Source: Marchantia polymorpha subsp. ruderalis (Eukaryota > Streptophyta > Marchantiopsida > Marchantiales > Marchantiaceae). From it: a DNA stretch of 64,000 bases. The notes under the pieces were generated by a model. That model ran no database searches, was not told the DNA's origin, and worked only from the letters and a program-made list of their open reading frames with translations. Position numbers and translations under genes: made by a program. Shown here in pieces: positions 55 to 43,218 of this stretch (position 1 is its first letter; each line of letters starts with the position of its first letter). Where the stretch lies: positions 27,318,501-27,382,500 of the forward strand of contig AP031356.1 of the NCBI GenBank assembly GCA_037833965.1, read 5' to 3'.

Positions 55-1181
55 CTACGCCGCGGACATGGGTGCGCAGCGCCGAAGGCGGAATTCTCGC
101 CGGCGCGCTACACTCCTTCGTACTTAACTTTGGCTAGCCCCGCTCCGCCGAAGGAGTTCGTCCGCGCATAGGACAAAAATCGAACTCCCTTCTGCGTAGG
201 CGGAATCCCCGGCGGAATCTCCGCCGGCGCAGAACTTCATCTGCCTGTGCGTAGGCGCTCGCCTACGCGTAGGCGAATTCCGTCCGCGCAGGTCCCTCGC
301 CGTAGGCGCAGCGCCGAAGGCGGCTGTGCCGAAGGCGTTGACCGCGGTCAACGGACTCCGTCTAGTCTGTCCATTGCTCTCGCCTCTCCGTCGGCGCTCT
401 TGTCCCCATAATCCCGACCGGCCGAAGGCGCACTCGTCCGTTCCGTCCGTATGGTCTGTACGGATTTACTACTCCGTCGGGTCCTCGCCCGTCCGTGATG
501 CGCTGGCGCCGAAGGCGCCGTACAATTTCCAACCCCGGAGGCGCATTTCTAGGGCCGAAGGCGGGCTTCCCGCCGACGCCGAAGCCGAAGCGCCTATGCG
601 TAGGCGACATTCGCGTCCGCCTGTGCATATGTGCAAGTCCTCCCCGCCTACGCGTAGGCGCAATTCACGTCGGACATCCCGCCGACGTCAAACCCTATTT
701 CGCCTATGCGTAGGCGAACTTCCCTCGTCCGCGCATAGGACAAACTTTCCTCGCCTACGCGTAGGCGAAGATCTTCGTATCTTTCGACCTTCACAACTCC
801 CGGAGTCCTCATCCGTTCGTGGCGTTCTTGAGCTCGTTAGAATCAGCGCGTCAAGCTCTTTCCAACGAAACCCTAACCAAGTCGAGGAGTTCGGGAATTG
901 ATCAGGTTCTGAAGGATTTCTCTAGCGCCAAAGGCGCAGCGCCGAAGGCGGATTACGCGCCTTGCGCCGAAGGGGTACTACTTCAGAGCCCGTTGTTTAG
1001 GGCGGCGCCTGTCCCAGACGTTGCGCCCAACTCCTGGATTCTACGAGATCTTTCGAGATTCTCCAAGATCATCCAGTTTCATTCTATTTTGATGCACCGA
1101 TGGCTATTTACACTATTGCCGCGGTACAGTTTTCCAAAAATGTTTTAAGTTCCTCAAAAATACCAAAAGTGGGGTACCACA
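55..1181 (-). mobile_element. A-like LTR, outer U3 part, interrupted
   Basis: This segment is colinear with the U3 start of element A LTRs (about 10640-11740) but clearly diverged. It ends at 1181 in the LTR terminus, TGTGGTACCCCAC on the minus strand. It is rich in short palindromes of the type CCTACGCGTAGG where the A copies have CCTGTGCACAGG. Open frames across it are by-products of GC-rich repeats and are not called genes. It inserted into the + oriented LTR whose remainder starts at 1182, and was itself hit at 54/55 by a B-type element. Confidence 0.85.
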
Positions 1182-1791
1182 CTGCTTGAGGTGCCTTCGG
1201 GGGTAGCCTCCGCAGTATTTCTGGGAATGACTAGTGCCTGAGAATTCAAACTCGTTAATAGACTGTTGAGTTGTGACATTGGATCTTTTCTCAACTTAGT
1301 TTCTTAGTTTGGATTTCTGTATTCTCTGCGCGTTTTGTGAGTTGAGTGTGTTGTTCACCGCGTGTGAGTGACTTCGGTTTGACGAAGGTACCGCATCCGA
1401 GGTAGGAAGTCCAACTCGGATGCTCTGCACTAGCAATGACTAGTGACAGTTTTGTAAATTCGAAGTTGGGGTCACTACCAGCATATACTCTGAGTGTACT
1501 ATGGGGAAACTTTCCCCCTAAACCTTAAGTAGAGGTCCTAATCGGCCTCTGAGTCGTGCTTTTACAGTTTCAGGTGTGTGTTGGGGTGTACTACGCTGCA
1601 TTGTGTGTCCTCCGAGTGACCTCTGAGATAAGCACTTGCAGTACTTCTGGGAGTGACAGTAGCCTGAGAATTCAAACTCCTCAATAGTTTGTCAAAACGT
1701 GACACTTTGTACTCTATGTGTTGCCTCTGTCCCTGTGGGTTCGACCCTTTTGCCGTTATACTGCAAATTTAGCCTTTGGTGGGTTATTACA
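1182..1791 (+). mobile_element. LTR 3' part (R/U5), plus orientation
   Basis: The sequence aligns with the last 610 bases of the old solo LTR at 45895-46511, including both copies of the block containing TATTTCTGGGA...GAATTCAAACTC, and ends in GGGTTATTACA, the standard LTR 3' end here. The upstream part of this LTR is displaced to the left by the insertion ending at 1181. The flank at 1792 (GTTGA) is AT-rich DNA and may be the target duplication, but the partner lies outside the window. Confidence 0.88.
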
Positions 1792-2063
1792 GTTGATAAT
1801 GCTAATTTTTTTGTTTTGATATAATTAAACAAAGTTTTCCAAGATAAATTTATGAAGTGTATATCTTTATCCATGATTAATATTTTCCTTAAGTCATGAT
1901 TTACAAAGATTGTATTAAAATACAATTTAATTACTTGTGAAGCTTCTATTGTTTTTGTGGTTAATCTGATGTAAATCATCTTGCTCAATTTTTCCATAAA
2001 AACCACCATTGCATTGTTTCCTAACGTAGTCTTTGATAACTCACATACAAGATTCATAATCAT
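1792..2063 (-). pseudogene. Integrase core fragment (Ty3/gypsy)
   Basis: The minus-strand translation reads like the central integrase domain. A stretch with VVFMEKLSKM matches the usual VVFVDRLSKM, and IMDKDIHF matches the second catalytic aspartate motif SDRDxxF. It is followed by W-x2-LF and by ALSTVITHQ, matching the usual LSTAYHPQ. The reading frame then runs into the LTR at 1791, so the glutamate-containing motif has been displaced by that insertion. This is a dead fragment of an element family different from A and B, whose integrase is of the SDRGTHF type. Confidence 0.65.
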
Positions 2064-3872
2064 ATGTTTTCATTATTCTTAGTAAACAATGAGAGTTTAT
2101 ATTAAACTATATTATTAGTTACATTTTTTTGTTGACAAGCAACACGACTTTGAATGTAAAACTTCATATTTTTTGTATTTTGATTCAATATTACATTTGT
2201 TGAATGTTATTCATGATAATCTTCACTCCCATATGACTTGCAATAACTTACTCATAACTTTTGGCTAAAATCTTTGTGCGCAATTTTTGATTTTATAGAA
2301 TGCACATGCGTTGGTTGTTGAACATCAAACCTTGATACTCTTTGTCTTCCCAGTTTGTAGTGCTGGAGTGATATGTTCATCCTTTTTTGTGACTTAAGTC
2401 ATCTTGCTTCACCAATCAGTTTGAGTTTTCATTTTTGTAACAAGATTCAGACAAAACATGTGTATAAAAGTATTTGCAAGTTACTTCTTGTCCTCTAGGT
2501 TTTCAAATAAACCAAGGAATTATATTTGGTATTCACCATAAACTTTTTATTATCCAAAGATGCTTAAGTGTTTTGTTGTCAATAAAATGATTAATTTATT
2601 ATTTTTTAAAATTTGGTAATTTTTTTAACCGCCATCAACTTTTAAGAATCAAAAGCAATTAGATATCATAAATCCTTCATTCTTATTGGAGTATGCGAGC
2701 CACTTTTATATCTCATGCGTTAGTAGCCAACTATATAAAGCGGTTAGGATCATATCACTTGAGTACACGTTTTTGTAACAAAACATCTTTTAATATTTAA
2801 AAAGTTAACTCTGAGTTGTTAGTCATCTTCATTTTGATCTTTTCCTAACATGTATGTTAGAATCTAAGCTACATGAACAAAAACCTTCACAAATTTACAA
2901 TAAAATCTAGTGAGTATTAGAAAGTTATTCAATTCAATTTGATCATCGAGTGTTGTACATTTTTCAATGAAATCTATCTTTTCACTCATTACTTGGATTA
3001 TTGCCATTCTAACTCTAAGATCGAAGTTATTATTTTTTACTTTTCAAATTCACATTTTGAATTTTTGGCATAAAATATATTTTCTCTCAAAATTTGAATT
3101 TTCAAGAATACATCAATATATCATTAAAAAAATTATAAACATTTATCTAAATAATGAAAAAATAATTGTTCATCAATTTCATGAATGTAACTTATGTACT
3201 GATGAGATCAAAAGTCATCACTATATATTCAAAGTGATCATACTTAATACAATAAAAAATCTTGTGCATATCTTCATTTGCAATTTGAATTTAATTGTAG
3301 TCATTACTCAAATCTAGCTTGATGAAGTATTTTACTCCTTGAAGTTGACCAAATAAATTATTTATATGAGATAACGAAACACTTGGTTAAATGAATTTTT
3401 TGCTCGACATCTCTTCCATTTGAGCTTTGCATTCTTTCAAATTGTTTAGAGCCAACGATATGGAACTTTGCAAGTTGATGTACTTTCATGTATCATCTTA
3501 ATCTTATGATCGACTTGTCTCTTTGATGATAATCCCGCAGGTAGATCATATCAAAAAAATGTTATTTACAAAAAAATTGGAATGTAAAGTTTGTTTGTGG
3601 ATCTAATATCTCTTTTAAATCCAAAAAAAACATACGTTATTTTTAAAAGAATATGCTTTATTCATCACGAAGAGAAAAAAAAACTTATTTTAGGATCTAT
3701 TATTTTCATAGATCTTTTGACCATTGTTTGTTATCTTTTTTTCTAATATATCTCTGGATTATATTGTTCCATCCATGACATTTTAAGATTGACAGCATTT
3801 CAAGCTAAACAAATTAATCTTCATTCAATGCTTTCCTTCAACCTTTGGATAACTGTACACTCTTTGTACGTG

Positions 3873-4055
3873 TCACAATTCAACTTTTTCATTTATGTAC
3901 TTTATCAACATCAAACCTAAGTTCATAACAACATTTTGTGACAAAGTATTTTTTGTCGTTTTAAGATCTATCAAAACTCTCATCTTGTGTAATTCCATCA
4001 AATTATCGGTGATAATAAGTTGAACTTGTTTCTTGTTCTTTTCATAAATTTTCAA
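3873..4055 (-). pseudogene. Possible protease fragment of the decayed element
   Basis: A 60-codon minus-strand frame contains MRVLIDLKTTKNTLSQ followed by a LGL motif. This resembles the retrotransposon aspartic protease pattern, a hydrophobic run, then D-S/T-G-A-T-x-N-F-I-S, then LGL, with the active-site SGA replaced. It lies upstream, in the minus direction, of the integrase piece, as expected for a gag-protease region. The match is short and degenerate, so this is a tentative call resting mainly on position and motif shape. Confidence 0.4.
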
Positions 4056-4469
4056 CCATTTACTTCGTCTAATCTCACATCTTCTTCACTTCGTGGAATA
4101 AGTAAAGACGTGTATCAAATTCACTAATGATCTGTGTTTCTCAAAGTACTTCCTCAACTTTTTCATACTCTGTACTCTTCATGTTGTTAAATGGTCGTCG
4201 TTGTACAAGTGTGGTAACCCACTTTTTGTTTTTGTGCGGAATTTACACATTTTTGGAAAATAAGTACCGCAGCAACAACTGTAAATAGTAATCGGTACAC
4301 GAAAATAGAGTAAAAATGGAAGATCACGGATCACTGAGAATCACGGAGTTGGACGCAATGTCGAGGACAGGCGCCTTCGAAGGAACGGACAGTTCCTACT
4401 GAGGGGAGCGCTTCTGGCGCCGTTGGTAAAAGCTTTCTTGTTGAGGGGTCTTCGTCTGAAGCACCTTCG

Positions 4470-5035
4470 GCTCAGACCCTTGCAGAAGAGCTTTCGCTGA
4501 AGACGTACGAGGCCTGGCACGGATGCGCCTTCGTCAAGGGAAATCGACTTCATCGCTAGACTACACCTTCGGCGGAACGCCTTTGGCGGTAGACTCCTTC
4601 GCCCGAGCGCCTTTGGCGCAAGCGCTTTTGATGTTAGATTCCGCCTTCGGCGGAGGGTCAAACCTTCGCCTTCGGTGGAAACATGCGCCCTCGGTGGAAG
4701 GAAACACCTACAGTGAGAGTGCCTTCGGCGGGAGAAGAAACGACACAGACAACGGCGAGATGCAGTGACTTCGGTCGTGCGCCTTCGGCCGTACGCCTTC
4801 GGCAATGCGCCTTCGGCAGAAGGAAAACGCCTTCGGCGATACGCAGAACGTGGAAAAGAAACCGTACGACGCGAGAAGCTTCGCCGCAACGCTTACGGCG
4901 GAGTGCCTTCGGCGGAAGCAGAAAGGACAAAGAAGTCGGCGCAAGACGTGTCTTTGCCGCAAGCGCCTTCGGCGGTAGACGCCTTCGGCGATACGCGAGC
5001 GGAGAACAGCTTCGGCGGAAATTGGCGGAATCAAG
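4470..5035 (+). repeat. Array of CCTTCGG hairpin motifs in U3
   Basis: The U3 of the old solo LTR carries about fifteen copies of GCGCCTTCGGCGG-like sequence at irregular spacing. In element RNA each folds as a short stem closed by C(UUCG)G, a very stable tetraloop. Variants such as CGCCTTTGGCGG keep the arms but change the loop. Similar motifs, read as CGCCGAAGGCG on the plus strand, occur in the minus-oriented copies. Open frames on both strands here are caused by the arrays and are not called genes. Confidence 0.75.
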
Positions 5036-5569
5036 ATTGAACGTACACGCGTGGGAGCTAGCGCAACGGCGGAGCGTGAATTCGAGCGTGCGAATTGGGC
5101 CGTTACGCCTCCGCGCCGGCATCGCATTCAAGCGAGTTGCGGCCAGTTCAAGTGTCGAATGTTGGGCGATCGCCAAAGGAGGGGAAGACCTCGTCGCTCC
5201 CTCATTCTCCCATTTTCAATTTTGCGTTCACCTAAGCTCCCGACTCGCAGCGTTGTAATTCGCAGCAATCTTGCGGAGAGAATTCTGAGAGTGAAGAGTG
5301 GGAGGAGCGCGCAGCAATCGAGTGCGCAGAAGTGGAATCTTGCGGAATTCTTGTGGAGAATTCGCGGAGGACTTGCGGAGTGATCGCTGAGTGTGAGGAA
5401 AGTGTGCAATCGCAGTAGCTCACGAAGAACTTGCACGGAGAGATTGCGGGAGTGCGCAAGAAGTGTGGAGAGCAATCACAGCGAGTTCGCTCGAGCTCCC
5501 GACGCGCGGAGAGAAGCAAGAAAGTTCGCGTAGGCAGAGAGGAGCGTGCAGGAACTTGCAAGAAGTTCG

Positions 5570-6333
5570 ATGGCCCGGTCCACCGAGCTGCGGATGGTTC
5601 CTCTGAAAGTGCCGCAGATTGGTCTCCGCACATTTCAGAGCGAGCTTACTGCGGTGAAGCTCGATTTCCTCCTATGGGGATGGAATTGGGTGTGTCCGGA
5701 GATGGTATGCAAGTGGCTGCGGGAGAAGAACCAACCTCCGCGCGGATTCCAACCTCATCTGGAGAAATGGCAGGTCAGCAATTGGGAGCAAGTGCTAGGA
5801 AGGTGTGCGGGAGAAGAAGGCCATCTTCTTTTCGAATGTGAGAGTGTGCAAGTCACGAAGGAGGAAGAGATTTCCTTCGGCACCCTATTCAAGAACAGCA
5901 AGTCCAGCAAGAACGGGTACAAGACCCGTGACTACAAGGATCGCTTGCGGAGGAATCTCGCGGTAGCACTCCTCCAAATTTTGCAGCCGCACCGGACCCC
6001 CTACATGACTTCTTGGCAGGTGGAGTTTGTGAAGCTGGCGTTGGCTGGAGCTCCGATCCATTGGGCTCGGATTCTTTGGAAGGCAACACGACAGCATGCA
6101 CAGGAGGAGAGGGGAGGATCGATCAATCACCTCTCCCCCTTCTTGATCAATTTCTATCGGTTGATGGGGTGTTTGACAGCCACGGAGCGAGTGCAGTTTC
6201 CCTTGCTGTCACGCAACAATCCGGGCAAGTATGTGAAGGATATCGAAGTCGACACCGACGAGGACGAGACAAACTCATGCACACCACCAGCTCGACCGAA
6301 AGCAGAGGAAGAACCGCGAGCAGCACGAGTGCC
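5570..6333 (+). pseudogene. U3 ORF of the old solo LTR, N-terminal part
   Basis: The frame from ATG 5570 aligns with the conserved N-terminal domain of the LTR ORFs of A and B. It shares the L-R-x-V/M-PLxxPQxGLRxF start, the KLDFLLWGWN motif, LGRCAG, RDYKDR, and a leucine-rich LSPFLINFYR motif before an acidic VDTD stretch. It is cut at 6333 by element A. The same frame resumes at 38445 with a basic RKRKW stretch and runs to a stop at 38700. More C-terminal pieces lie at 44585-44776 and 45059-45451. Function is unknown, and this copy is broken by the insertion and by its own stops. Confidence 0.8.
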
Positions 6334-7277
6334 TGTAATAACCCACTAAAGGCTAAAACTGCAATATAGTGGTAGAAAGGTCGAACCCACAGGGACAGAG
6401 GAACACACAGGGTACAAAGTGTCACGTTTTAACAGACTATTGAGGAGTTTGAATTCTCAGGCAACTGTCACTCCCAGAAATACTGCAAGTGTCCACTCGG
6501 AGCGCACTCGGAGGTCGCACAGTGCAGCGTAACACACACACACACACACACCTGAAACTACAGAAACACAACCCAGAGATCCGTTAGGACCTCTACTTCA
6601 AGATTTCAGGGGGAAAGTCTCTCAAGAGTACACTCGGCAAAGCTGCGGGCAGTGACTTCCAACTCCGGCTTTTACAACGCTTCCACTAGCTTGCTGCTAG
6701 TGTAGGAAACCCGGTTTGGACTGCCTACTTCGGATCGAAGTCACTCATACGCGGTGAACAACACTCTCAACTCACAAAACGCGCAGAGAACACAGGTCCA
6801 CACTGAAGGACTCACTGTGAAACGTTCCAGTAACACAACAACAGTCTATTGAAGAGTTTGAATTCTCAGGCACTTGTCATTCCCAGAAATACTACAGGGG
6901 TTACCCTCAAGGCACCTGCTGCAGCGTAACCTGAATTTACAACCAAGGCTTACACGAAGTAGCAAAACTTCACTTTGGCATTCAGGGGAAAAATCCCAAG
7001 GAGTACAATCAGAAAGAAACACTCGAAGGTGTAGGGGCGAAACTGTTCAAGTATCTAACTAGTCACTGGCTCTGAGCATCGGCAGTCACCCGCAGGTGCA
7101 GTTCCGAACTACTCAAGTCTCTAACCAATGTACTAGCTCTGAACATTCGGCCGAAGGCCTTCAGCTACAAAATGCGGAACGCTAAGTTGTAACTCCTCGT
7201 GCGTGGTGACAGAACTCAAGGACACAAACACGCAAAGGAAATGGGTTCCTGATCTGCACTTCTGATGGGAAAGAACC

Positions 7278-7306
7278 CCAGGCAAAACGCCTGGAACTAT
7301 TTTATA
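7278..7306 (-). promoter_or_regulatory. TATA box and start-site hairpin, element A 3' LTR
   Basis: The minus strand reads TATAAAAT (7306-7299), followed after four bases by the 17-nt inverted repeat CCAGGCGTTTTGCCTGG (7294-7278). The expected transcription start lies near 7275. The hairpin is kept in other LTRs with matched arm changes (CAAGGC...GCCTTG in B and the old LTR). The TATA box marks the U3/R border and places the long ORF in U3. Confidence 0.7.
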
Positions 7307-7342
7307 CCTTCTAAGTCCTACCTAGCACTACACTGCACTACG

Positions 7343-10243
7343 CTACACGCCTGCACGGAACCACGCTACACTACACTCCGCGGAACCTGTACTACGTCTC
7401 CTGCGCGGCCGACTGCCGCGCACTAGCTCCCTACCCTGCCACTCTTCCGCTCGACTACGCAGTCCCAACCGCTGCAACGCCGCGGACACCTCCCCCTCGA
7501 GGGCGGACATGGTATCCTGTGCCTTCGACAGAAAGGCCTCGAGCTTCTTCGCTACCTTCCGCCGACTCCTACTGTCGCCTGACAACAACCCGGCTGCGCG
7601 CAATTCAAACTCCCGCAGTGTGAGTTTCTCCTGCGCCTTCACTTCCCAGTGGGCGTAGCCCTTGAGACAGTGGGCGACTCGCCTCGCCGTCTCCACCTTC
7701 GTGCGATCCGCCTTTTTCCTGCGATCCTCTTCAATGGTCACTAATTGCGATTCGGCTTCAGCACGTTGCGCCCTCAATTCGCCACACTCTGACTGTAAAC
7801 TGCGGATTAATTCTTCATCCGCCTGCCGTGCGAGCTGACATTGTTCCAACAACCGCGTCTGTCGCACGAGCTCCTCTGACAAAATCCGATTCTCGGCCTG
7901 CTCAGAGTTGAGTGCTTCCTTGACCTTCACCTGCTCCTTGGTGAGCTCGCCCAGTTTCTCATCCTTCATCTTCTCGGAGTGCTTGTAGAATTTCTGATTA
8001 AGCTTGTACTGTCCCCACAAGCACTCATGCTTCTCCTTCAAGTCCCTCAACTCCTGGTCCACTCTAGCTAATAGCTTGCTGGTGTGGACTTTAGTGCGAG
8101 TCCGCCTGCGCACTAACTCGATGTAAGATCCCGGCTGGAGTGGGTCGGCGTATTTATCGACCTTGCGATCCAAGTACCGCAGCAACGGAATCACCTGCTC
8201 AGAGAGCGCCGCCGCCGGCGCTCCAACAATTTCCTCCTCCTCCTCCTCGGTGTCTTCTGCTCCTGACATTTCTTCCGTGGAGCCTCCGTCCTCATCATCC
8301 GAGTGGAGAATTTCAGTCGCCATTGATTGCGTCGGCGACTGCCCCGAGTGGGGCTGCACGTCCTCGACGTGTGCTGCCTGCGAAGGCACGGCTGCAGCCT
8401 CGCTGCTCGTCGCCAAAATGTCTAAGGCGGAAGGCGAATGTATCCGAGCGGCATCCCCGTCGCTCGCTGGTTGATTGCCCACCGCATTCTCTCTGTCGCC
8501 GTCGTCCGTCGCCGAAGGCGATCGAGCGGAGGGTGGCTGCGCGGGGTTGGATTGCGCATCGCGCATCGAGATGTCGTCCCGCGGATAGTCACTCCGCTCC
8601 TCCGTCTGCTGCTCCCTTGATCGGTCCGTGGGGGCTGTGTCCGGCCCGTGCGCAGGCGCATGTGCCGGCGCCTTGTCCGCCGCAGGCGTAGCGCCGCGGA
8701 CATCTATCGCCGAAGGCGACATGGCCGGGGGCCGCACGCCCGATGTTCCTTGGCCTATAGGCCCTACCGCCGAAGGCGCATCTATCGGCGTACTTCCCGC
8801 CGATGGTGCGGCCTCCGCACGCTCTCTGCTCGTATCCCCTCGGCTCGAAGGCCCTGGCGCCGAAGGCGCGAATTGCGGCGCGTGGTGCGCCGGAGGGTCT
8901 GGCCCCGAGGGCCGGTGTCTCGTAGGCGGTTCTTCCGCCGGCTCCTTCCCCTTCCTACGTTGGAACGGGGGTGATTCTTGCCTGTGCACAGGCGGCACGT
9001 GTGGAGGTGTTCTGTGCACAGGTGACCTGTGCACAGGCGACCTGTGCACAGGCGAGCGCCTGTGCACAGGCGGACTGCTCCTTCCCACGCGTAAGCGTAG
9101 ATCCACGTCCACTTGTGTTCGCCGATCCGCGGAGGCTCGTCCGTCCGCGGAGGTTCGCCTGTGCGCAAACGGAACATCTGTCCGCATCGCACGTGGTAAC
9201 TCCGGAGGCCCTTGGCCCGTAGGCGGCCTCTCTCCCGACGAGGTTGCAGCGTGGCCCGTCGCTCCTGCGGTCGTCCGCGCTTCTTCTCGCCTCTCTGGCG
9301 ACGCACTTCCTATCTCCGTCGCAATCGTCGCCGTGTCTGCACTGTCAGCTGGCAACACCAGTCTGCGTGCCTTCTGCTTCGGCCGGCTGTATGGCTCGCA
9401 CAGCGGCCGCGGTCGAATGGGAACAGAGAGTTCTTGATGCTGCTCCTCTTCGGCCTCTTCCCTCCATCGCCGCTTCCGCGGCACTCGCGCTGCAGGGGTG
9501 TGTCTCCCTTCGTCTCTCCGTCTTGATGGGGTAGAAGTCGGTGACTCCTCCGCATCAGTGTCGACCTCGTTCTCCCGCACATACTTCCCGGGATGGTCGA
9601 TGGACAATGGCGGAAAATGTTCAAGCTCCGCCGCTGTCAAACAATTCCGCTGTCGATAAAAATTGATGAGGAAAGGAGAAAGATGGTTTAGCGTTCCCCC
9701 CTTCTCCTCAAACGCGTGCTGTCGCATCACTCTGTGCAGGATGCTCGCCCAGTGAATTGGAGTTCCCTCGATGACGCACTCCACAAAAGAGACCTGCCAC
9801 AATGTGATGTAGCAGGCGCGGTGCGGCTGCAGTAATTGCATCAGCGCCGCGGACAAAGTCCGGCGAAATCGATCTTTGTAATCACGGGTCCTGTACCCAT
9901 TCTTGGTAGACCTCCCGGTCTTGAACAGCTCCACAAATTGCGCTTCTTCTTGCTTGGTCACCTTGATGCTCTCGCTGTCGAAAAGGAGATGCCCTGGCAT
10001 GCCAGCACATCTTCCCAACGCCTGCGCCCAATCTTGGACTGTCCACCGGTCAACATGCGGACGCAATCCGCGCGAGGGTGGTCCCTGTGGCTCTAGCCAC
10101 TCGCGCACCATATTCGCGCAGATGTAATTCCATCCCCATAGCAAGAAATCGAGCTTTCTTGCTATTAAGCGCTCTTCGAAAGCGCGCAGCCCGTTCTGCG
10201 GCAGGCGAAGTGGCACCATCCGCAATCTGCTCGGTCTCGTCAT
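7343..10243 (-). CDS. U3-encoded ORF of element A (unknown function)
   Basis: I chose ATG 10243 because the start and following residues align with the B and old-LTR homologues. The frame is open further to ATG 10495 (1050 codons), but that extension is not shared outside the A family. Numbered from 10495, the conserved N-terminal domain spans residues 85-315 with KLDFLLWGWN, LGRCAG, RDYKDR and LSPFLINFYR motifs. A basic RKRRWR stretch follows near 340. Residues 345-725 are low complexity, rich in Pro, Arg, Ser and Ala, including PVHR repeats at 476-505. An acidic run lies at 730-756. A long coiled coil spans about 805-930 and a helical basic tail follows. The ORF lies upstream of the LTR TATA box, so it should be expressed from the 3' end of the genomic RNA or from another promoter. 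The N-terminal domain loosely recalls plant transposon-associated domains near Athila-type elements; this is not established. Confidence 0.8.
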   Translation of the reverse strand: MTRPSRLRMVPLRLPQNGLRAFEERLIARKLDFLLWGWNYICANMVREWLEPQGPPSRGLRPHVDRWTVQDWAQALGRCAGMPGHLLFDSESIKVTKQEEAQFVELFKTGRSTKNGYRTRDYKDRFRRTLSAALMQLLQPHRACYITLWQVSFVECVIEGTPIHWASILHRVMRQHAFEEKGGTLNHLSPFLINFYRQRNCLTAAELEHFPPLSIDHPGKYVRENEVDTDAEESPTSTPSRRRDEGRHTPAARVPRKRRWREEAEEEQHQELSVPIRPRPLCEPYSRPKQKARRLVLPADSADTATIATEIGSASPERREEARTTAGATGHAATSSGERPPTGQGPPELPRAMRTDVPFAHRRTSADGRASADRRTQVDVDLRLRVGRSSPPVHRRSPVHRSPVHRSPVHRTPPHVPPVHRQESPPFQRRKGKEPAEEPPTRHRPSGPDPPAHHAPQFAPSAPGPSSRGDTSRERAEAAPSAGSTPIDAPSAVGPIGQGTSGVRPPAMSPSAIDVRGATPAADKAPAHAPAHGPDTAPTDRSREQQTEERSDYPRDDISMRDAQSNPAQPPSARSPSATDDGDRENAVGNQPASDGDAARIHSPSALDILATSSEAAAVPSQAAHVEDVQPHSGQSPTQSMATEILHSDDEDGGSTEEMSGAEDTEEEEEEIVGAPAAALSEQVIPLLRYLDRKVDKYADPLQPGSYIELVRRRTRTKVHTSKLLARVDQELRDLKEKHECLWGQYKLNQKFYKHSEKMKDEKLGELTKEQVKVKEALNSEQAENRILSEELVRQTRLLEQCQLARQADEELIRSLQSECGELRAQRAEAESQLVTIEEDRRKKADRTKVETARRVAHCLKGYAHWEVKAQEKLTLREFELRAAGLLSGDSRSRRKVAKKLEAFLSKAQDTMSALEGEVSAALQRLGLRSRAEEWQGRELVRGSRPRRRRSTGSAECSVAWFRAGV

Positions 10244-11740
10244 TGCGTTCCTAGGGTTCGCTCGCCCGCTCATTCTACTTCCGCACTGTCCGCGTTTCTT
10301 TCTCTCTCGGCAAACTCTAATCGCTCTCAATTCCAAATCACGCGCACTCACTTCTCCCTCAATCAACAAGAAATCTCCTGTGCGACGACGACGAGAATGG
10401 TCCGCAGCCAGCAGATGGATGCGCGCAGCGCGCACAAGAGATTGGAATCGCGAATTCAAGAATGGGACGCTCTCCGCCGCCCGGTCGAAGGTCATGGTCG
10501 TCTCTTGGTCGTGAAGAACGTCTCACTTGATGGCCGCGCCGGCTGTACGCTGGAACGGTCTTCGCTCTCACGCGCGGCTTCACGCTCCGCCGTCGTCGAT
10601 TAAACTCTCACGCTCGAATTGGCGGATTTGAACTCCGCGAGCGTGTCACCCTCCGGACATGGGGGCGTAGCGCCGAAGGCGAGTTTTCCGCCTTGCGCGG
10701 TACACTTGTTCGTACCGCCCCTCGGCCAATCTCCTTCTGCCTTGACGCGTGCGTCCGCATGTCGGACGAAAATTCAACTCCTGCCTGTGCGCAGGCAGGG
10801 GCCTCGGCGGATTCTCCGCCGGCGCGGAACTTGAACATCCTCCTGTGCACAGGCGTTCGCCTGTGCGCAGGCGAATTCCGTCCGCGGCGCCGCGCTGGCG
10901 CGGAAGGCGTTGACCGTGGTCAGCCGTCTCCGTCCAGTCTGTCCGTTCCTTGTCTCTCCGTCGGCGCTTCCGCCGCCGCAACTCCGTCCGTCCAAGAGCG
11001 CATCCACCCGTGCCGTCCGCACGGTCCGTACCTATTGGATTACTCTGGCGGCTCTTCCGACGTACGCTGCGCTGCGCTGGCGCGGAAGGCACCGTACACT
11101 TTCTACCTCACAAGGCGCATTTCTAGGGCCCAAGGCGGATTTCCCGCCGACGCCGAAGTGCCTGTGCACAGGCGAACGCCTGTGCGTAGGCGGACTTCGC
11201 GCCTTCCCTAACCCTACTTCGCCTGTGCACAGGCGAACGCCTTCGTCCGCGCATAGGACAAAACTTGAATCCCCCTTCCGCGCAGGCGGAATTCGCGCCG
11301 GTGGCGAACTCCTTCCGCCGCAGGCGACCGCCTCCGTTTCTTCCAGTAGCGATAACTCCCTAAGTCCTCGTCCGTTCCAAGCGTTCTTGGGCTCGTTGGA
11401 ATCAGCGCGTCGAGCTCTTTCCAACGGGATCCTAACTTGGTCAAGGCGCCCGAAAGTTACCTAATTACGAGGGTTTCCCTACAGCCGCGGACGCAACCTC
11501 CGAAGGCGGGTTTTGCGCCTTGCGCCGTAGAGATCCTAACTGCGGAGCTCGCAGGGAGGGTGGTGCCTGACCTTACTACTGCACCCCAAATCCCAGATTC
11601 TACAAGATCCCTTGAGAATCCCCGCGATCTTCCGGATTCACTCTGTTTTGATGTACCGAAGGCTATTTACAATGCTGCCAGGGTACAGTTTTCCAAAAAT
11701 GTTTTAATTTCCTCAAAATTGCCAAAAGTGGGGTACCACA

Positions 11741-11758
11741 TGCCCCCCTCCTCAATTG
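11741..11758 (-). other. Polypurine tract of element A
   Basis: The minus strand reads CAATTGAGGAGGGGGGCA directly before the 3' LTR start at 11740. A purine run next to the 3' LTR is the standard plus-strand primer for reverse transcription. The same 18 bases occur in element B at 23319-23336. Confidence 0.85.
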
Positions 11759-11777: not shown

Positions 11778-14618
11778 TCACATGTGGTATTTCTTCAACC
11801 GCCACCCGTTCACTCGGGTGCCTAACAAATCGCCGGCCAGGTCCGCAAGTTGGATGGACCCATTCGGGAAGACTTCGACAACCCTGTAAGGTCCCATCCA
11901 CCTTAGGTGCAGTTTGCCTGGGAATCTGGCATGCCTGCTGTCGTAGAGCAATGCCAAATCACCCGCCTGCAGTAGTACCGGTTTGATCTTTTTATCGTAC
12001 CTCTCCTTTCGGCGGAGCTGGATTTTCCTGGTGCGATCTTCGGCGTCTCTTCTCCTTTCATCCAGCAGCGTGACCTCCTGTAACCTGTAGAGCTGACTCT
12101 CCTCTGCGCCCATCCTCTGCAAATCCATCGTTCGATGTGTGGGTACTTCAAATTCGATTGGGAGGATCGGGTGTTGCCCATACACCAGAAAGTATGGTGT
12201 CTGTTTGGTCGTGATCTTCTCAGCTGTGCGGTACGCCCATAGAGCGGCTGCTAGCTTCGTATCCCAGTCGTGAGCGTGATTCACCGTGACCTTGAGTAGT
12301 ATTTTACACAGCAGTCCATTGGACTTCTCCGTCAGTCCATTTGCCTTAGGATTGTATGGAGTAGTCTTCCGGTGCTTGATGTGGAAGTACCGTGTCAGGT
12401 CTTCGATGATCTGATTAAGAAAATGCGTGCCCCGGTCGCTGACTAGTTCTAAGGGACATCCATAGCGTGTGATGATTGACTCGAACAAGAATGCTGCCAC
12501 TGTGGCAGCATCATCCCTTCTGGTGGCCCTGGCCTCTACCATTTTGGTGGCGTAGTCCGTTGCTACCAGAATGTAGCGCCTTCGTGTACTTCTAGTCACT
12601 GGTTGTATCGGCCCTACAAAGTCAATACCCCACTTTTCGAAAGGTGCTAGAGGCATGATGGGAGTCAGGGGCCATCGTGTTGTAGGCGTCGGTCTCCCCG
12701 TCCTCTGGCAACTGTCGCACTTGCGGATGTAATCGAGAACATCCTTAAACATGGTCGGCCACCAATATCCCGCATTTAGGATCTTTGTGACCGTGTTCCT
12801 GGTGGCATAGTGTCCACCCGCCTCCTCTGTATGCATCGCACTCACTATCCTTGGTACTTCTGATTCCTCCAAGCATCTGCATAAGCGCTCATCCGCCATC
12901 TTCTTGAACAAAACCCCCTGCTGGAGTTGATACGGGCCTGCCTTATGAATGAAGACAGTTCGCTGTTCCAAATCCATGCCCTCGGGGCACTGGAGGGTTA
13001 GCAGATATCGATACAGGTCGGCATAGCGGGACTCATGTCCTGCAGACAACTGAAATAACTCTTCATCTGGAAAATCGTCCACCAATTCCTCCTCTGTCGG
13101 CTGTGTCCATAATCGGGACAAGTAATCCGCATTTTCGTGGTGCACCCCTTTCCTGGTCTGGACTGTGTAGGTGAACTCTTGTAGTAATAACACCCACCTG
13201 GCGATTCGACCGGATAGGTCGGCTTTCTTAACTAGGTGTTGCAATGCGTAGTGGTCCACATGGAACACAAACTCGTAACAGATTAGGTAGTGACGGAACT
13301 TTTTACAGGAGTACACCATCCCCAACGCTTCTCTCTCCGTCGTGGTGTACTTCCGCTCTGCTAGAGACAGCTGTCGGCTCGCGAAGTAGATCGGGTAGTC
13401 CTTTTTGTTGTCATCCTTTTGACTCAGTACTACACCGATGGCGAATGCCGAAGTGTCAACGTAAACATGGAATGGTCGATTCCAGTCTGGACTCCTTAGT
13501 ACGGGAGCAGTCGTGAGTTTCGCTTTCAGAGCTTCAAATGCTGTCTGCTGGTTCGCACCCCAAGCATAAGGCTCGTCCTTCTTCAACAACTTGGTCAGGT
13601 CCGCCGCCAGTATTGCATACATGTGTATGAATCTTCGGTAGTAGCCCACATGACCCAGGAATGCTCGCAGCTCTCTTAGATTCGTGGGTGGCTCAAGCTC
13701 GAGTATAACCTTGACCTTCTCGATGTCCACCGCAATGCCTTCTGCCGAGACCCGATGACCCAACAAGATCCCACTAGTCATGAAGAAAAAGCACTTCTCG
13801 GGATGCAGCGATAAACTGCTCTCTCTACATTTATCGAAAGTCTGCTTCAAGTGACTTAGGTGTTCAGACCGCTTCCCAAAGACACAGAAGTCATCTATGA
13901 ATATTTCTAGGAACTTCCTCAGTTGTTCCTGAAAGATATTGGTCATCATCCGTTGAAAGGTGGCAGGCGCGTTGCACAGACCGAAGGGCATCTTGTGGTA
14001 TGCGTAAGTTCCCCAGTCGGTTGTGAACGTAGTTTTATCCTTGTCCTGTTCACGGATAGACACCTGATTGTAACCTGAGAACCCATCCAGGAAGCTATAA
14101 CATTCATGTCCGGCAACATGGTCTAGAATGGCATCCGTGAATGGTAACGGGTGATGATCCTTGCGTGTTGCCGCATTCAACTTCCGGAAATCCTGACACA
14201 CTCGTATCTTACCCGTCAACTTCTTGGGTACGATAACAATCGGCGACACCCACTCACTGCTGAGCACAGGGTAAATAATACCAGCGCTCAAGTACTTATC
14301 TATCTCCTCTTTCACTAGCAAGGAGTACTTTGGGTTGAGGCGATACTGGCGCTGTCGTATGGGTACTGAGTCGTCCAGTAAATCGATACGGTGCTCCCCA
14401 TACCGTGCAGGTATCCCCTTCATGTCCTCGATCTTCCAGGCGAAGACGTCGACATAGTGGCTAAGGAACGCCTGTACTTTCCTTAGCTCGTCTCCTCTCA
14501 CTGCGCTTGATACCTTCAAGCACTTGCCGGGACTGAGTTGTACTTCGTGACAGTCACTAGGGTCGACAATGCCCTCGGTGTGACTCGTCTCACTCCTTCC
14601 CAGTCCCACAGTTAATTG
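11778..14618 (-). CDS. pol: Pol of element A: RT, RNase H and integrase
   Basis: The frame follows the Gag UAG in phase and has no early ATG (the nearest start-like codon is GTG at 14609), so it should be made by stop-codon read-through. Numbered from 14609, the reverse transcriptase has LDGFSGY (Asp175) and FIDDF (Asp239-Asp240). RNase H has VDTS (Asp385), TEREAL and NADYLSRL (Asp495). The integrase has an H593/H600 and C631/C634 zinc-binding set and the catalytic triad Asp663, Asp725, Glu761, with exactly 35 residues between the last two. The C-terminus has a FPGKLHLRW-GPY motif and ends without a chromodomain. All motifs look intact. The product copies the RNA into cDNA and inserts it in the nucleus. 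Confidence 0.93.
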   Translation of the reverse strand, partial: QLTVGLGRSETSHTEGIVDPSDCHEVQLSPGKCLKVSSAVRGDELRKVQAFLSHYVDVFAWKIEDMKGIPARYGEHRIDLLDDSVPIRQRQYRLNPKYSLLVKEEIDKYLSAGIIYPVLSSEWVSPIVIVPKKLTGKIRVCQDFRKLNAATRKDHHPLPFTDAILDHVAGHECYSFLDGFSGYNQVSIREQDKDKTTFTTDWGTYAYHKMPFGLCNAPATFQRMMTNIFQEQLRKFLEIFIDDFCVFGKRSEHLSHLKQTFDKCRESSLSLHPEKCFFFMTSGILLGHRVSAEGIAVDIEKVKVILELEPPTNLRELRAFLGHVGYYRRFIHMYAILAADLTKLLKKDEPYAWGANQQTAFEALKAKLTTAPVLRSPDWNRPFHVYVDTSAFAIGVVLSQKDDNKKDYPIYFASRQLSLAERKYTTTEREALGMVYSCKKFRHYLICYEFVFHVDHYALQHLVKKADLSGRIARWVLLLQEFTYTVQTRKGVHHENADYLSRLWTQPTEEELVDDFPDEELFQLSAGHESRYADLYRYLLTLQCPEGMDLEQRTVFIHKAGPYQLQQGVLFKKMADERLCRCLEESEVPRIVSAMHTEEAGGHYATRNTVTKILNAGYWWPTMFKDVLDYIRKCDSCQRTGRPTPTTRWPLTPIMPLAPFEKWGIDFVGPIQPVTRSTRRRYILVATDYATKMVEARATRRDDAATVAAFLFESIITRYGCPLELVSDRGTHFLNQIIEDLTRYFHIKHRKTTPYNPKANGLTEKSNGLLCKILLKVTVNHAHDWDTKLAAALWAYRTAEKITTKQTPYFLVYGQHPILPIEFEVPTHRTMDLQRMGAEESQLYRLQEVTLLDERRRDAEDRTRKIQLRRKERYDKKIKPVLLQAGDLALLYDSRHARFPGKLHLRWMGPYRVVEVFPNGSIQLADLAGDLLGTRVNGWRLKKYHM

Positions 14619-14621
14619 CTA
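14613..14621 (-). promoter_or_regulatory. Gag-Pol read-through site UAG-CAA-UUA
   Basis: Gag ends with Glu-Asp-Glu-UAG, followed in the same frame by CAA-UUA and then an open pol frame. UAG-CAR-YYA is the known tobamovirus-type leaky stop context. Gag, the stop and Pol share one phase, and Pol has no nearby ATG. Element B has UAG-CAA-CUA at the same place, which also fits the consensus. Confidence 0.8.
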
Positions 14622-17405
14622 TTCGTCTTCCGGCTGAATAGCTTCCGTCTCTTCTTCTTCTTCCACCGAACAGCAGGCAACGAATCCCACGAAGTAATCG
14701 GATTCGGTACCACTGGAATCCGATCGCGCGGTCGACTCACTGTCCTCGCCCGATGTGTAACCTGCACTTGTCGATGGGGTCTCTCCTTCGTGCCTGACCC
14801 TATTCCAGGGCATTGTAATGGTGTTGGTCGGTTCCGAAGGATGAGGAAACTTAAGGCGATGTCTTCGCCAGTCACATCTGACTTGTGCACCATATAGCCA
14901 TGGTCGCCCGAGCAGAACGTCATAGCCCTGCTTCATCATCGGTTGAAGGATGATATACGTCAACCGAAAGTCCGCACCCCCGATGGTTGTCTTGACATTG
15001 CGCAGCATACCTGCAGGCATTCTCCGCGTCTGATCCGCTAATCTCAACACACGCTTCGAGGGTTCGTATTGACTGAACCCCAAGGCTCTCGCTGTATCCT
15101 CCGTCATTATGTTGACTCCTGATCCAGAGTCGATTGGCACTCTGCGTACACAACATCCGGCTATCTCCACATCGATCTCGGGTGGCCCTTGGTCTTCGCT
15201 CTCCACTTGATATACTTGAGAGGATGTGGATGCTCGCGGCTTCCGCGGATGCCGTAGCGAAAGCATCAACATTCTCCGATACGTCTTATTGTCCTCCAAG
15301 AGCTGCTTGAACGTAATGTTCACTTTTCGACTCCCGAGATCTTCAACCAAGTCATAGTGGGCGCGTTGGGGCGCCGGGGTCGGCGACGCTCTGCGAGGTT
15401 CCACGGTGGCTGCCAACTTCGCCCCAAGGGAGGATGTCAGGTCTGGCCGCGGTGGATCCTTTTGAGTGCGGATCGCTTCCTGCAACAGGTTGGCTACCTC
15501 GTTGCGGATATCCGGAGCATAGTCCCGTTTCAGTAGGCGCACTGGCTCGTCCTCGACTGCTGCCTGGGGGCGCACTGCTGGTGCCTCCCGCGTAGTCAAA
15601 GACTTCCGAGCAGGTCGCGAGTCGGACTTGCTGGATGTCTTCTCCTTTCCTTTTCCCGTCCGGTCGGCGGTTCTCCGTTCGTGCTTGCGAGTGTCACGCT
15701 CTTGCTCCTTGGATTTCTTGGAGCTACGAGTTTCGACCCGTGCGCACATAACCTCTTCAGCCGGCCATTCTTCGTCTTCGCCATCCCCGTCTGAACCTAC
15801 TTCGACCTGGTTAACTTGCACGTCCTCCTTGGCAGGAGTGTTCACAAATCGTACCACTGGCCGAGGGACTGGTGGCTGATCACACTCTGGCGCAGTGTGC
15901 CCGACCTTCTTGCAATTACTACATGTCGGAGCATAATCGTTTCGCCTTTTTGGATGGGGACACTGCGGTGAGAAGTGCCCAACTTCCCCGCAATTATAAC
16001 AAGCTCGCGGTGGCGGTGGGTCAAACGTCCCTGGAGGTGCTCTCCGCCTCACAGGTACCGTAGTGGCCCGATCCACCGGAATATATCGTGGAACTTGCAT
16101 TGCTGAAACCGCAGGAGGGGTAGGCACCGACTGGACGGCGTAGGCTGTCTCTTCGCTAGCCTCTCCATAGTACTGAGGGTGCTCTCCATAGTACTGAGGG
16201 TGCTCTCCATAGTACGGTTGCGCCCACTCTACTGCGTTGACTGGATATGACGGCCGGGTGGTAAGGCACTCGGTGTTTGCATGTCCCACCGCCCCGCACG
16301 TAGTACACCATAAGTTCGCTCGCACTCTCCCGGGTGATTTTCGGCGATCATGCCCGCCTACCACTTGAACCCTGAGATCGGCGAAGTCCTTCACAAGGGT
16401 CTCCATCTTCGAAGCTATATCTCCCGGCGCTCTGTCCGTAGTCACTCGTCGGATGCCCTTTTTCTTCGCTGACCCATGCTTCTTCCTCTTCTTCTCCTCC
16501 TCCGACGATGAGGTTTCCTCTTCTTCGGATGAAGAACGGTTCTCGTCCGAAGACGATTCCTCCGATGACGGAGTTGTACCTCTACGCCGTCTTCGCCCTC
16601 CCTTCGGTTTGCGCTCCTTCGACTCCCGTCTCTCTCTCCCTCTTCGGTTGAGAGTGGAAGTTTCGAAGGCTTCTGCCGATGCAATCACATCCTCAATAGT
16701 GTCGCACTTGCTGCGTCGGCAAAAAGTCTCCATCTCCCGAGTTAAACCGGTCACGTACCAATCCACAGCTTGTTGTACCGAGAAAGGGGACCCTGGTCCT
16801 GTTTTCGGTATTCTGTCGAGGAGGTCCATAAATCTCTCAGTGTAGTCACGCAGACTCTCCTTCTTCTCTCGCTGCAAATTACGTAACTTCGTCAAAACCC
16901 GGCTGTCGTAGCCGAGCTCGCGAAAGCGACGAAGGAACTTCTCCTTCAGCTGGGCCCATGTTGTCAACCCAGTCGGATCGATGCTCTCGTGATTATACCA
17001 ACTCCTCGCTTTCTTCGACTCGAATAACTTGATGTATGAATCTGCATCGTCGTCATCCCCACTCCCTTTGTACTTCGGGTAGGAATGTTTAGTAATCGGC
17101 TGAGGTAGCCGCACATTGGCTTGTCCGTCCGCCATCAGTGTGTCTGTCGACGGTCCTCGGACGGTCGGTTGTACTTCACTAGGCGGGTCCGTGCAAGGAA
17201 TATCTAGTAGAACTGTAAGCACCAAGTTTGGTTCCGAGTCGCCGGGGGTAGGTTCCCCAAGGATGTCGGCCGAACTAGGCTTAGGTACTCTTTTTGGTGT
17301 TTTCTTGGTTTGACGCCGTGTCTCTTCCACGGCCTTCTCTGAATCTCGTCGGAACTTGCGGACAGCTCTAGCACTTAGGTTGCTCCCGCCAGCCCCAGTC
17401 GACAT
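14619..17405 (-). CDS. gag-pro: Gag-protease of element A
   Basis: The 928-codon ORF starts 46 bases after the primer site. A retrotransposon Gag (capsid) domain spans about residues 105-250. A Ser/Glu/Lys-rich segment follows at 255-320. Three CCHC zinc knuckles lie at Cys367-Cys380, Cys469-Cys482 and Cys495-Cys508. The aspartic protease has the active site Asp759-Ser760-Gly761 and the later LLGRPWL motif at 831-837. Gag coats the RNA and forms particles, and the protease releases the mature parts. The capsid domain lacks 22 residues after Phe-Glu-Ser (near residue 130) that element B retains and that match the usual DEDRLRxFPxxL helix, so this Gag may be defective. A YYGEHPQ repeat lies at 398-414. 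Confidence 0.92.
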   Translation of the reverse strand: MSTGAGGSNLSARAVRKFRRDSEKAVEETRRQTKKTPKRVPKPSSADILGEPTPGDSEPNLVLTVLLDIPCTDPPSEVQPTVRGPSTDTLMADGQANVRLPQPITKHSYPKYKGSGDDDDADSYIKLFESKKARSWYNHESIDPTGLTTWAQLKEKFLRRFRELGYDSRVLTKLRNLQREKKESLRDYTERFMDLLDRIPKTGPGSPFSVQQAVDWYVTGLTREMETFCRRSKCDTIEDVIASAEAFETSTLNRRGRERRESKERKPKGGRRRRRGTTPSSEESSSDENRSSSEEEETSSSEEEKKRKKHGSAKKKGIRRVTTDRAPGDIASKMETLVKDFADLRVQVVGGHDRRKSPGRVRANLWCTTCGAVGHANTECLTTRPSYPVNAVEWAQPYYGEHPQYYGEHPQYYGEASEETAYAVQSVPTPPAVSAMQVPRYIPVDRATTVPVRRRAPPGTFDPPPPRACYNCGEVGHFSPQCPHPKRRNDYAPTCSNCKKVGHTAPECDQPPVPRPVVRFVNTPAKEDVQVNQVEVGSDGDGEDEEWPAEEVMCARVETRSSKKSKEQERDTRKHERRTADRTGKGKEKTSSKSDSRPARKSLTTREAPAVRPQAAVEDEPVRLLKRDYAPDIRNEVANLLQEAIRTQKDPPRPDLTSSLGAKLAATVEPRRASPTPAPQRAHYDLVEDLGSRKVNITFKQLLEDNKTYRRMLMLSLRHPRKPRASTSSQVYQVESEDQGPPEIDVEIAGCCVRRVPIDSGSGVNIMTEDTARALGFSQYEPSKRVLRLADQTRRMPAGMLRNVKTTIGGADFRLTYIILQPMMKQGYDVLLGRPWLYGAQVRCDWRRHRLKFPHPSEPTNTITMPWNRVRHEGETPSTSAGYTSGEDSESTARSDSSGTESDYFVGFVACCSVEEEEETEAIQPEDE

Positions 17406-17450: not shown

Positions 17451-17469
17451 GTCCCCGGCAGCGGCGCCA
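17451..17469 (-). other. Primer binding site of element A (tRNA-Asp)
   Basis: The minus strand reads TGGCGCCGCTGCCGGGGAC, complementary to the 3' end of plant tRNA-Asp (CCGGCAACGGCGCCA type) with one internal difference. It lies 22 bases from the LTR edge at 17492, an unusually large gap. The gap carries an AGAAG-CCGACAA-CUUCU stem-loop in RNA sense. Element B has the same site and the same gap. Confidence 0.85.
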
Positions 17470-17491: not shown

Positions 17492-18445
17492 TGTAATAAC
17501 CCACTAAAGGCTAAAACTGCAATATAGTGGTAGAAAGGTCGAACCCACAGGGACAGAGGAACACACAGGGTACAAAGTGTCACGTTTTAACAGACTATTG
17601 AGGAGTTTGAATTCTCAGGCAACTGTCACTCCCAGAAATACTGCAAGTGTCCACTCGGAGCGCACTCGGAGGTCGCACAGTGCAGCGTAACACACACACA
17701 CACACACACCTGAAACTACAGAAACACAACCCAGAGATCCGTTAGGACCTCTACTTCAAGATTTCAGGGGGAAAGTCTCTCAAGAGTACACTCGGCAAAG
17801 CTGCGGGCAGTGACTTCCAACTCCGGCTTTTACAACGCTTCCACTAGCTTGCTGCTAGTGTAGGAAACCCGGTTTGGACTGCCTACTTCGGATCGAAGTC
17901 ACTCATACGCGGTGAACAACACTCTCAACTCACAAAACGCGCAGAGAACACAGGTCCACACTGAAGGACTCACTGTGAAACGTTCCAGTAACACAACAAC
18001 AGTCTATTGAAGAGTTTGAATTCTCAGGCACTTGTCATTCCCAGAAATACTACAGGGGTTACCCTCAAGGCACCTGCTGCAGCGTAACCTGAATTTACAA
18101 CCAAGGCTTACACGAAGTAGCAAAACTTCACTTTGGCATTCAGGGGAAAAATCCCAAGGAGTACAATCAGAAAGAAACACTCGAAGGTGTAGGGGCGAAA
18201 CTGTTCAAGTATCTAACTAGTCACTGGCTCTGAGCATCGGCAGTCACCCGCAGGTGCAGTTCCGAACTACTCAAGTCTCTAACCAATGTACTAGCTCTGA
18301 ACATTCGGCCGAAGGCCTTCAGCTACAAAATGCGGAACGCTAAGTTGTAACTCCTCGTGCGTGGTGACAGAACTCAAGGACACAAACACGCAAAGGAAAT
18401 GGGTTCCTGATCTGCACTTCTGATGGGAAAGAACCCCAGGCAAAA
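17492..18445 (-). repeat. Element A 5' LTR, inner part (R/U5)
   Basis: This part is colinear with 6334-7287 of the 3' LTR and ends at 18445 in CAAAA, the target duplication of element B. The remaining part of this LTR is at 33982-38439. Together, after removing the duplication, they total 5407 bp. No gene is called; small frames here are shared by all U5 copies and look incidental. Confidence 0.93.
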
Positions 18446-19343: not shown

Positions 19344-19372
19344 CAAGGCAAAACGCCTTGATCTATTTTATA
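19344..19372 (-). promoter_or_regulatory. TATA box and hairpin, element B 3' LTR
   Basis: The minus strand has TATAAAAT followed by the inverted repeat CAAGGCGTTTTGCCTTG. Compared with A (CCAGGC/GCCTGG) both arms have changed together, which keeps the pairing. The equivalent site in the 5' LTR has its TATA box at 30028-30035. Confidence 0.7.
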
Positions 19373-19405
19373 CTCTCAAAAGATCCTAACTAGCACTACG
19401 CTATC

Positions 19406-23318: not shown

Positions 23319-23336
23319 TGCCCCCCTCCTCAATTG
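23319..23336 (-). other. Polypurine tract of element B
   Basis: The minus strand reads CAATTGAGGAGGGGGGCA immediately before the 3' LTR, identical to element A. It is the plus-strand primer of reverse transcription. Confidence 0.85.
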
Positions 23337-26196: not shown

Positions 26197-26199
26197 CTA
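26191..26199 (-). promoter_or_regulatory. Gag-Pol read-through site UAG-CAA-CUA
   Basis: Gag ends Asp-Glu-Glu-UAG, followed by CAA-CUA in the same frame as Pol. This fits UAG-CAR-YYA. The third codon differs from element A (UUA) in a position where the consensus allows either pyrimidine. Confidence 0.78.
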
Positions 26200-38439: not shown

Positions 38440-38444
38440 GTGCC

Positions 38445-43182: not shown

Positions 43183-43218
43183 CGTAGTACAGTGTAGTGC
43201 TAGGTAGGACTTAGAAGG

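Follow-up and report, generated by a model that had tools for sequence, protein, structure and literature searches.

The retroviral genes sag of mouse mammary tumour virus (MMTV; about 320 codons) and nef of lentiviruses (about 200 codons) lie in, or reach into, the U3 region of the 3′ long terminal repeat (LTR) and are thus copied to the LTRs. Additional open reading frames (aORFs) of plant LTR retrotransposons are placed internally, either before gag or after pol and ahead of the 3′ LTR, in the portions of the source papers on which we draw (PMC7264820, PMC6317226, PMC11963269). The extra ORFs of giant-LTR elements are placed 5′ or 3′ of the polyprotein, and none is stated to lie inside the LTR in the excerpted text (PMC6317226). 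Excerpts likewise describe a sense ORF of 487 amino acids in a sunflower Athila element, with partial Transposase_32 similarity and a predicted nuclear signal (PMC11728184), and an additional protein of sunflower Tekay that is proline-rich and largely disordered, with helical coils (PMC3485330, PMC11728184). No plant gene inside an LTR is described in the titles and opening lines of abstracts of the open-licence papers that our searches on LTR-internal, U3 or additional retrotransposon ORFs, including that of Tekay, brought up. Here we analyse a 64,000-nucleotide stretch of Marchantia polymorpha subsp. ruderalis (assembly GCA_037833965.1, contig AP031356.1, positions 27,318,501 to 27,382,500; hereafter the window) that holds a nest of related LTR elements. 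We consider it probable (roughly 0.72) that these belong to a Ty3/gypsy lineage with a genuine element gene in U3, namely a sense 3′ aORF on the U3 side of the polypurine tract (PPT).

The gene is found in both LTRs of two elements (A and B), in a solo LTR (D) and, as a relic, in an older solo LTR (C). An intact copy in the A 3′ LTR (7343–10243, minus strand) encodes 966 amino acids from an ATG at 10243 that A, B, C and D share in the alignment; the frame is in fact open from 10522 (10522–7343, 1059 codons), and an alternative ATG at 10495 would give 1050 amino acids. The ORF listing and the alignment place a second intact copy in the A 5′ LTR (34042–36942, minus strand), and the copy in D is also intact (40300–43182, plus strand; 960 amino acids). 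The copies in the B 3′ LTR (19406–21962, minus strand) and B 5′ LTR (30069–32625, minus strand) carry an identical one-nucleotide shift, near 21555 and near 32218, which leaves a frame of 758 codons from stop to stop. In C, 256 aligned codons of the N-terminal domain (N-domain) are free of stops, and five stops fall within 284 aligned C-terminal codons. An earlier reading made from the sequence only had proposed an ORF of 850–970 codons in five LTRs, among them the frame at 7343–10243, and its ruins in a sixth, older LTR. The open frame, the intact ORFs of both A LTRs and D (966 and 960 codons) and the ruins, which are those of C, all hold up, but the two B copies do not, being shifted. We further note that in B and C a stop closes the frame 12 codons before the conserved ATG. 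In A and D, 93 open codons precede this ATG (10244–10522, minus strand) and show seven synonymous and three nonsynonymous differences (p = 0.003); judging from these codons, an N-terminally extended A/D protein of 1050 amino acids is possible, the extension being absent from B and C.

The position of the gene relative to the PPT and the TATA box places it within U3. The pol stop is separated from the start of the 3′ LTR by 37 nt that include the PPT. In A, the PPT (GAGGAGGGGGGCA; 11741–11753, minus strand) lies 24 nt after the pol stop codon and the LTR begins directly after it, and B has the same tract at 23319–23331. About 1.5 kb of LTR precedes the gene in A, and 1.36 kb in B and C. At its other end, a TATA box in the A 3′ LTR (TATAAAATAG; 7297–7306, minus strand) starts 37 nt past the final base of the ORF stop codon and is the sole TATA[AT]A of that LTR. 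A single TATA[AT]A is also present in the B 3′ LTR, the B 5′ LTR, D and the 5′ part of the A 5′ LTR, starting 34–37 nt past the gene stop in A, B and D, and the tail of C contains one, with TATAAAG at the aligned place. The whole ORF lies between the PPT and the promoter, the latter as judged by the TATA box only, and is copied to both LTRs. If transcription starts from this TATA box, position and the standard LTR cycle together imply that the gene is in U3, is present once in the genomic RNA between PPT and R, and is copied to both LTRs. This anatomy agrees with the sequence-only reading, which had put the ORF in U3, after pol and upstream of the LTR TATA box, and duplicated with the LTR; the LTRs of A, B and D have no second TATA[AT]A upstream of the ORF, where a start would have spoken against that proposal. 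The gene fills 2.9 of the 5.4 kb of the A LTR, in keeping with the suggestion that it accounts for the LTR size.

An inverted repeat directly follows the TATA box (7278–7294 and 19344–19360, minus strand; 45513–45529, plus strand). It reads CCAGGC-GTTTT-GCCTGG in A and CAAGGC-RTTTT-GCCTTG in B and C, which amounts to one compensatory pair change. In the A 5′ LTR, the loop of the repeat is where B has inserted, 10–20 bp past the A TATA box.

The pattern of change between A and D strongly supports a coding function. Over 1044 codons from the ATG at 10495, the two ORFs differ by 67 substitutions, 42 synonymous and 25 nonsynonymous, giving a ratio of nonsynonymous to synonymous rates (dN/dS) of 0.18, far below the value near 1 that the sequence-only reading had named as telling against a gene. 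Simulations with a substitution spectrum taken from the 52 noncoding changes between the same two LTRs, with CpG sites handled separately, predicted 19.1 synonymous changes, and none of 20,000 was as extreme as the observed 42. The comparison contains no stop, an outcome reached in only 8.6% of the simulations. The single indel within the ORF is 18 nt long; those outside it measure 1, 4 and 61 nt. Each of the two remaining sense frames is interrupted by 33 stops, and their dN/dS values are 1.4 and 2.7. Counted from the conserved ATG, codons 1–230 show 10 synonymous and no nonsynonymous changes (binomial p = 3e-7), codons 231–640 show 16 and 13 (p = 9e-4) and codons 641–960 show 9 and 10 (p = 0.016). 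We conclude that the U3 frame is genuine coding sequence under purifying selection between A and D. Comparisons among A, B and C give proportions of synonymous differences (pS) of 0.62–0.83, at which synonymous sites are near or past saturation, with dN of 0.25–0.46; we take from them only that the reading frame has outlasted this deep divergence. For pol, A and B differ with pS 0.83 and dN 0.06; the U3 gene is thus much less constrained than pol.

The predicted protein has a three-part plan, shown in part, in which a conserved helical N-domain would be joined by a basic, disordered-looking linker to a long coiled coil. Conservation is highest in the N-domain of about 230 residues, for which a helical structure is predicted; amino-acid identity among A, B and C is 57–63% for the pairs reported, whereas much of the middle region and of the LTR head barely aligns. 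The middle region is 52% proline, serine, alanine, threonine and glycine, contains proline-rich repeats and looks disordered, and the basic motifs PRKR[RK]W and SRPKQ[KR]ARR within it are common to A, B and C. For the C-terminal 319 residues, the model contains one 183-residue helix, with a mean predicted local distance difference test score (pLDDT) of 73, 112 of 319 residues at 90 or above and a predicted template modelling score (pTM) of 0.29; the sequence RRRRSTGSAECS near the C-terminal end is common to A, B and D. Pfam searches with hmmscan found nothing at the curated cut-off, either for the A and B ORFs (E up to 1) or for pieces of the N-domain (A, B, C) and of the C-terminal part (A, B) at E up to 10, a setting at which the hmmscan filters still drop most matches above about 0.1. 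In these scans the U3 ORF had no match to PF20167, PF10536, PF04195 or PF03078. To our eye the N-domain is reminiscent of Transposase_32 (PF20167), an impression to which the Pfam scans give no support. Pfam matches below the cut-off (PF16928, FXR_C1, DUF1690 and others) and two NCBIfam matches, also below cut-off, were rejected as coiled-coil or low-complexity noise, and the PDB sequences contained no match to the U3 ORF at E up to 1.

Other explanations of the frame can be weighed against this evidence. That it arose by chance in G+C-rich (about 0.62), repeat-containing DNA, or merely mirrors an overlapping antisense ORF of 282 codons (8589–9437, plus strand), is very hard to credit, even though the proline-rich repeats of the middle region would favour such an origin. 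In 300 order-2 Markov versions each of the A LTR and of the ORF region alone, the longest ORFs reached 417 codons (mean 241) and 491 codons (mean 254), against 1059 observed, and Markov versions of the B LTR reached 406 codons, against 758 observed. Within the antisense-ORF stretch, the A/D differences divide into 9 synonymous and 8 nonsynonymous when read antisense (ratio 0.36) and 10 and 7 when read sense (0.25), which is undecisive for that stretch. Over the whole ORF, the antisense frame that mirrors the sense codons has a ratio of 0.23 but contains 15 stops; in B, the longest antisense open run within 19409–21556 is 135 codons; and the synonymous excess is strongest in the N-domain, which lies outside the antisense-ORF stretch. 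Both the chance ORF and the antisense ORF were rejected on the Markov controls, the simulations and the comparison of frames, the antisense stretch by itself settling nothing.

A different placement of the gene would follow if the TATA box were not the main start and transcription began in the LTR head, so that the ORF would lie in R or a 5′ leader and be translated first, as in elements with an ORF upstream of gag. The 1.36–1.50 kb before the conserved ATG leave room for a promoter, and TATA-less promoters are invisible to a pattern search. We nevertheless find this arrangement unlikely, given that the sole TATA[AT]A in A, B and D sits just past the ORF stop, with a matching place in C, that the LTR head diverges, and that a leader of some kilobases, carrying the ORF and 8–18 upstream ATGs, would precede gag. 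We regard as improbable, too, the suggestion that a host-like or captured gene is carried passively in one LTR lineage and is constrained by host use of some copies. The length and continuity of the frame, its own stop codon and the lack of any known retroelement domain would suit such a gene. Against it, the gene occupies the same pre-TATA place in A to D and is present in lineages A, B and C, whose synonymous sites are near or past saturation, which argues for a long stay in the element; moreover, the constraint was measured between two element copies, A and D.

Several observations weigh against a selected element gene in U3. B inserted recently, with LTRs 99.92% identical, yet both of its LTRs are frame-shifted; B therefore moved without an intact copy of its own, and the gene is either dispensable in cis or supplied in trans. 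Constraint outside the N-domain is weaker, as seen in the counts for codons 231–640 and 641–960. A and D differ at 40 of 1184 positions in the LTR head, 67 of 3132 in the ORF and 12 of 1012 in the R-U5 tail; since the tail diverges less than the ORF, total divergence alone proves nothing, and the argument lies in the kind of change. The antisense ratios given above count on the same side. Among A, B and C, dN/dS is 0.10–0.28 where computable, with no value for the A/B C-terminal part, pol or gag-pro, and we do not rely on it. The LTR heads of A, B and C contain 9, 18 and 8 ATGs upstream of the conserved one, so plain scanning from the LTR head would be inefficient. Finally, the structure model of the N-domain was unusable (pLDDT 44), and no homologue was confirmed among viral contigs (queried with the ORF, pol and the N-domain), genome contigs (N-domain) or phages, none of them a plant collection.

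Taking the gene to belong to the element and to lie in U3, we propose that the genomic RNA would have the order R-U5-gag-pro-(UAG readthrough)-pol-PPT-U3 gene-R-polyA and that, under the established scheme of LTR replication, reverse transcription would copy the U3 gene into both LTRs. In this order the gene occupies the spot at which a sense 3′ aORF is often found in plant elements, but with the PPT on its 5′ side. Because the gene in the 5′ LTR sits upstream of the TATA box, its protein would presumably be translated from a subgenomic RNA that ends in the 3′ LTR and is either spliced or started in the 1.36–1.5 kb LTR head. Inspection by eye showed, in each of A, B and C, an AG|G no more than about 20 nt before the conserved ATG, but the A sequence lacks a convincing pyrimidine tract, and we make no claim of a conserved splice acceptor. 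In the weakest part of the proposal, the protein may act in trans as a factor that self-associates through its coiled coil and is possibly nuclear because of the basic motifs, and it might aid element expression, escape from silencing or integration. As to origin, the simplest conjecture is that a 3′ ORF of the plant aORF type came onto the U3 side once a pol-adjacent PPT became the functional one; inspection by eye of the interval between gene stop and TATA box revealed no trace of an older PPT.

The broken U3 gene of B, together with a stop in its gag, suggests that B was mobilised by others and that the U3 product, if needed, was supplied in trans. B is thus evidence both ways for an accessory gene acting in trans. 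D, in turn, shows that the gene can come through solo-LTR formation undamaged. The deletion removes gag and pol but would keep the U3 gene, so that solo LTRs could continue to supply the protein. A bolder and distinctly tentative claim, which we think somewhat doubtful, is that this lineage is the first among plant-type LTR retrotransposons to have a large, selected gene lying entirely in U3, and that its solo LTRs provide the product in trans and so keep defective relatives such as B mobile. If so, an element reduced by LTR deletion becomes a freestanding copy of its own accessory gene. A selected U3 gene of 960 codons would make a solo LTR a surviving gene, beyond a scar with a promoter; it would be one reason for giant LTRs, and genes of this kind could be overlooked where LTRs are assumed to be noncoding.

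The internal regions define the type of element. The A pol ORF (11778–14618, minus strand) matches reverse transcriptase (RT), RNase H (RH) and integrase (INT) domains by hmmscan, and the gag-protease ORF (14622–17405, minus strand; also by hmmscan) lacks 22 capsid-region residues that B has. The two are in one frame, separated in the sequence by a UAG (14619–14621, minus strand) followed by CAA UUA, and B has the equivalent UAG CAA CUA at 26197–26199. The UAG CAA YUA context, which we take to be of the tobamovirus readthrough type, is kept in both elements despite saturated synonymous sites, and suggests that this UAG is a site of programmed readthrough. The B gag (29025–26200, minus strand) contains a stop codon at 28423–28425, and with the 22 residues missing from the A gag (17405–14622, minus strand), neither A nor B looks fully autonomous from its sequence. 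The pol of B is 90% identical to that of A, and the domain scan covered A pol only.

TG...CA LTRs, 5-bp target duplications, a primer binding site (by appearance), a PPT and the order gag-protease (PR)-RT-RH-INT identify these as Ty3/gypsy LTR retrotransposons. The Pfam matches of A pol, the one pol scanned, include no chromodomain, as would mark a chromovirus. The second RNase H (aRH) of OTA/Tat elements was not found either, with one RNase H region in A pol and none in the gag-pro of A or B. PF03078 of OTA/Athila is unmatched in the Pfam scans of the U3 ORF, and that domain is present only in some Athila members. A tRNA-Asp primer is an OTA/Athila trait, and the putative primer binding site of A (TGGCGCCGCTGCCGGGGAC; 17451–17469, minus strand, 22 nt after the 5′ LTR), assigned by sequence appearance, presumably corresponds to tRNA-Asp.

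LTR limits were set by direct repeats in a self-comparison of the window, target-site duplications and inspection of end sequences. Target duplications of 5 bp flank all four of A, B, C and D, and the gene-carrying LTRs measure 4.9–5.4 kb. B lies inside the A 5′ LTR, and A and D both lie inside C. The A 3′ LTR (6334–11740, minus strand) is 5407 bp long with TG...CA ends; the A 5′ LTR is split by B into a 3′ part (17492–18445, minus strand) and a 5′ part (33987–38439, minus strand). The target duplication of A, GTGCC, lies at 6329–6333 and 38440–38444, and identity between its LTRs is 99.84% across 4463 bp and 100% across 954 bp. The B LTRs span 18446–23318 (3′; 4873 bp) and 29109–33981 (5′), both on the minus strand, with the duplication CAAAA. 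D (38863–44195, plus strand; 5333 bp; duplication GTCGG) is 97.5% identical to the A LTR over 4853 bp. The older C runs in the plus direction in pieces from 4210 to 46511 (duplication ACAAG): a head (4210–6332), whose N-domain frame is open over 5570–6332 and is cut by A; a middle piece (38445–38857), with a tblastn match from 38440; and a tail (44201–46511) with the C-terminal part of the gene at 44495–45448, interrupted by stop codons, and TATAAAGTAG at 45501.

At the left edge of the window, an LTR head (E; aligned at 63–1181, minus strand) adjoins an LTR tail (F; 1183–1792, plus strand) of the same lineage, both stopping short of the U3 ORF (63–1792 together); the lineage repeatedly nests in itself. 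Very A+T-rich segments (2001–4000 and 52001–54000; G+C 0.27 and 0.31) lie near the elements, whose G+C is 0.5–0.62. An 825-codon ORF at 48841–51318 (plus strand) carries an Agenet, two DUF7028 and one HSP20 domain in the Pfam scan, a combination reminiscent of the plant anti-silencing proteins IDM1 and IDM2/IDM3, and is possibly a host gene fusion. Scans of the window with Rfam (at the gathering threshold) and for tRNA genes produced 0 matches.

In comparison with described systems, the elements fall in the same size class as giant-LTR non-chromovirus elements, whose LTRs reach about 5 kb (PMC6317226). Retrosat2, RIRE3, RIRE8 and Tekay likewise combine large LTRs (>3 kb) with an extra ORF (ORF0, a 5′ aORF; excerpts of PMC3485330 and PMC11728184); these are chromoviruses with the ORF upstream of gag-pol, whereas the A pol has no chromodomain match. 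The 3′ aORFs with Transposase_28 of Retand, Grande and RIRE2 resemble the U3 gene in being extra ORFs after pol with no assigned function, but in the passages drawn on they are antisense and lie between pol and the 3′ LTR (PMC7264820, PMC11963269), whereas the present gene is sense and within the LTR. Closer are the sense 3′ aORFs of plant OTA/Athila elements (aORF-3S, env-like; Athila ORF-1 PF03078 and Transposase_32 PF20167), which also follow pol in the sense direction in non-chromovirus Ty3/gypsy elements, and the sunflower Athila ORF is, among the passages drawn on, the nearest in plan to the U3 gene. Athila-type aORFs are described as occurring once per element, between pol and the 3′ LTR, whereas the present gene is inside U3 and has no Pfam match to their families. 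The parallel with MMTV sag and lentiviral nef, drawn already in the sequence-only reading, stands for position only: the U3 gene here has 960–966 codons and sits in a Ty3/gypsy element, in contrast to the shorter retroviral genes, and by that position it would be a plant counterpart of the retroviral U3 genes.

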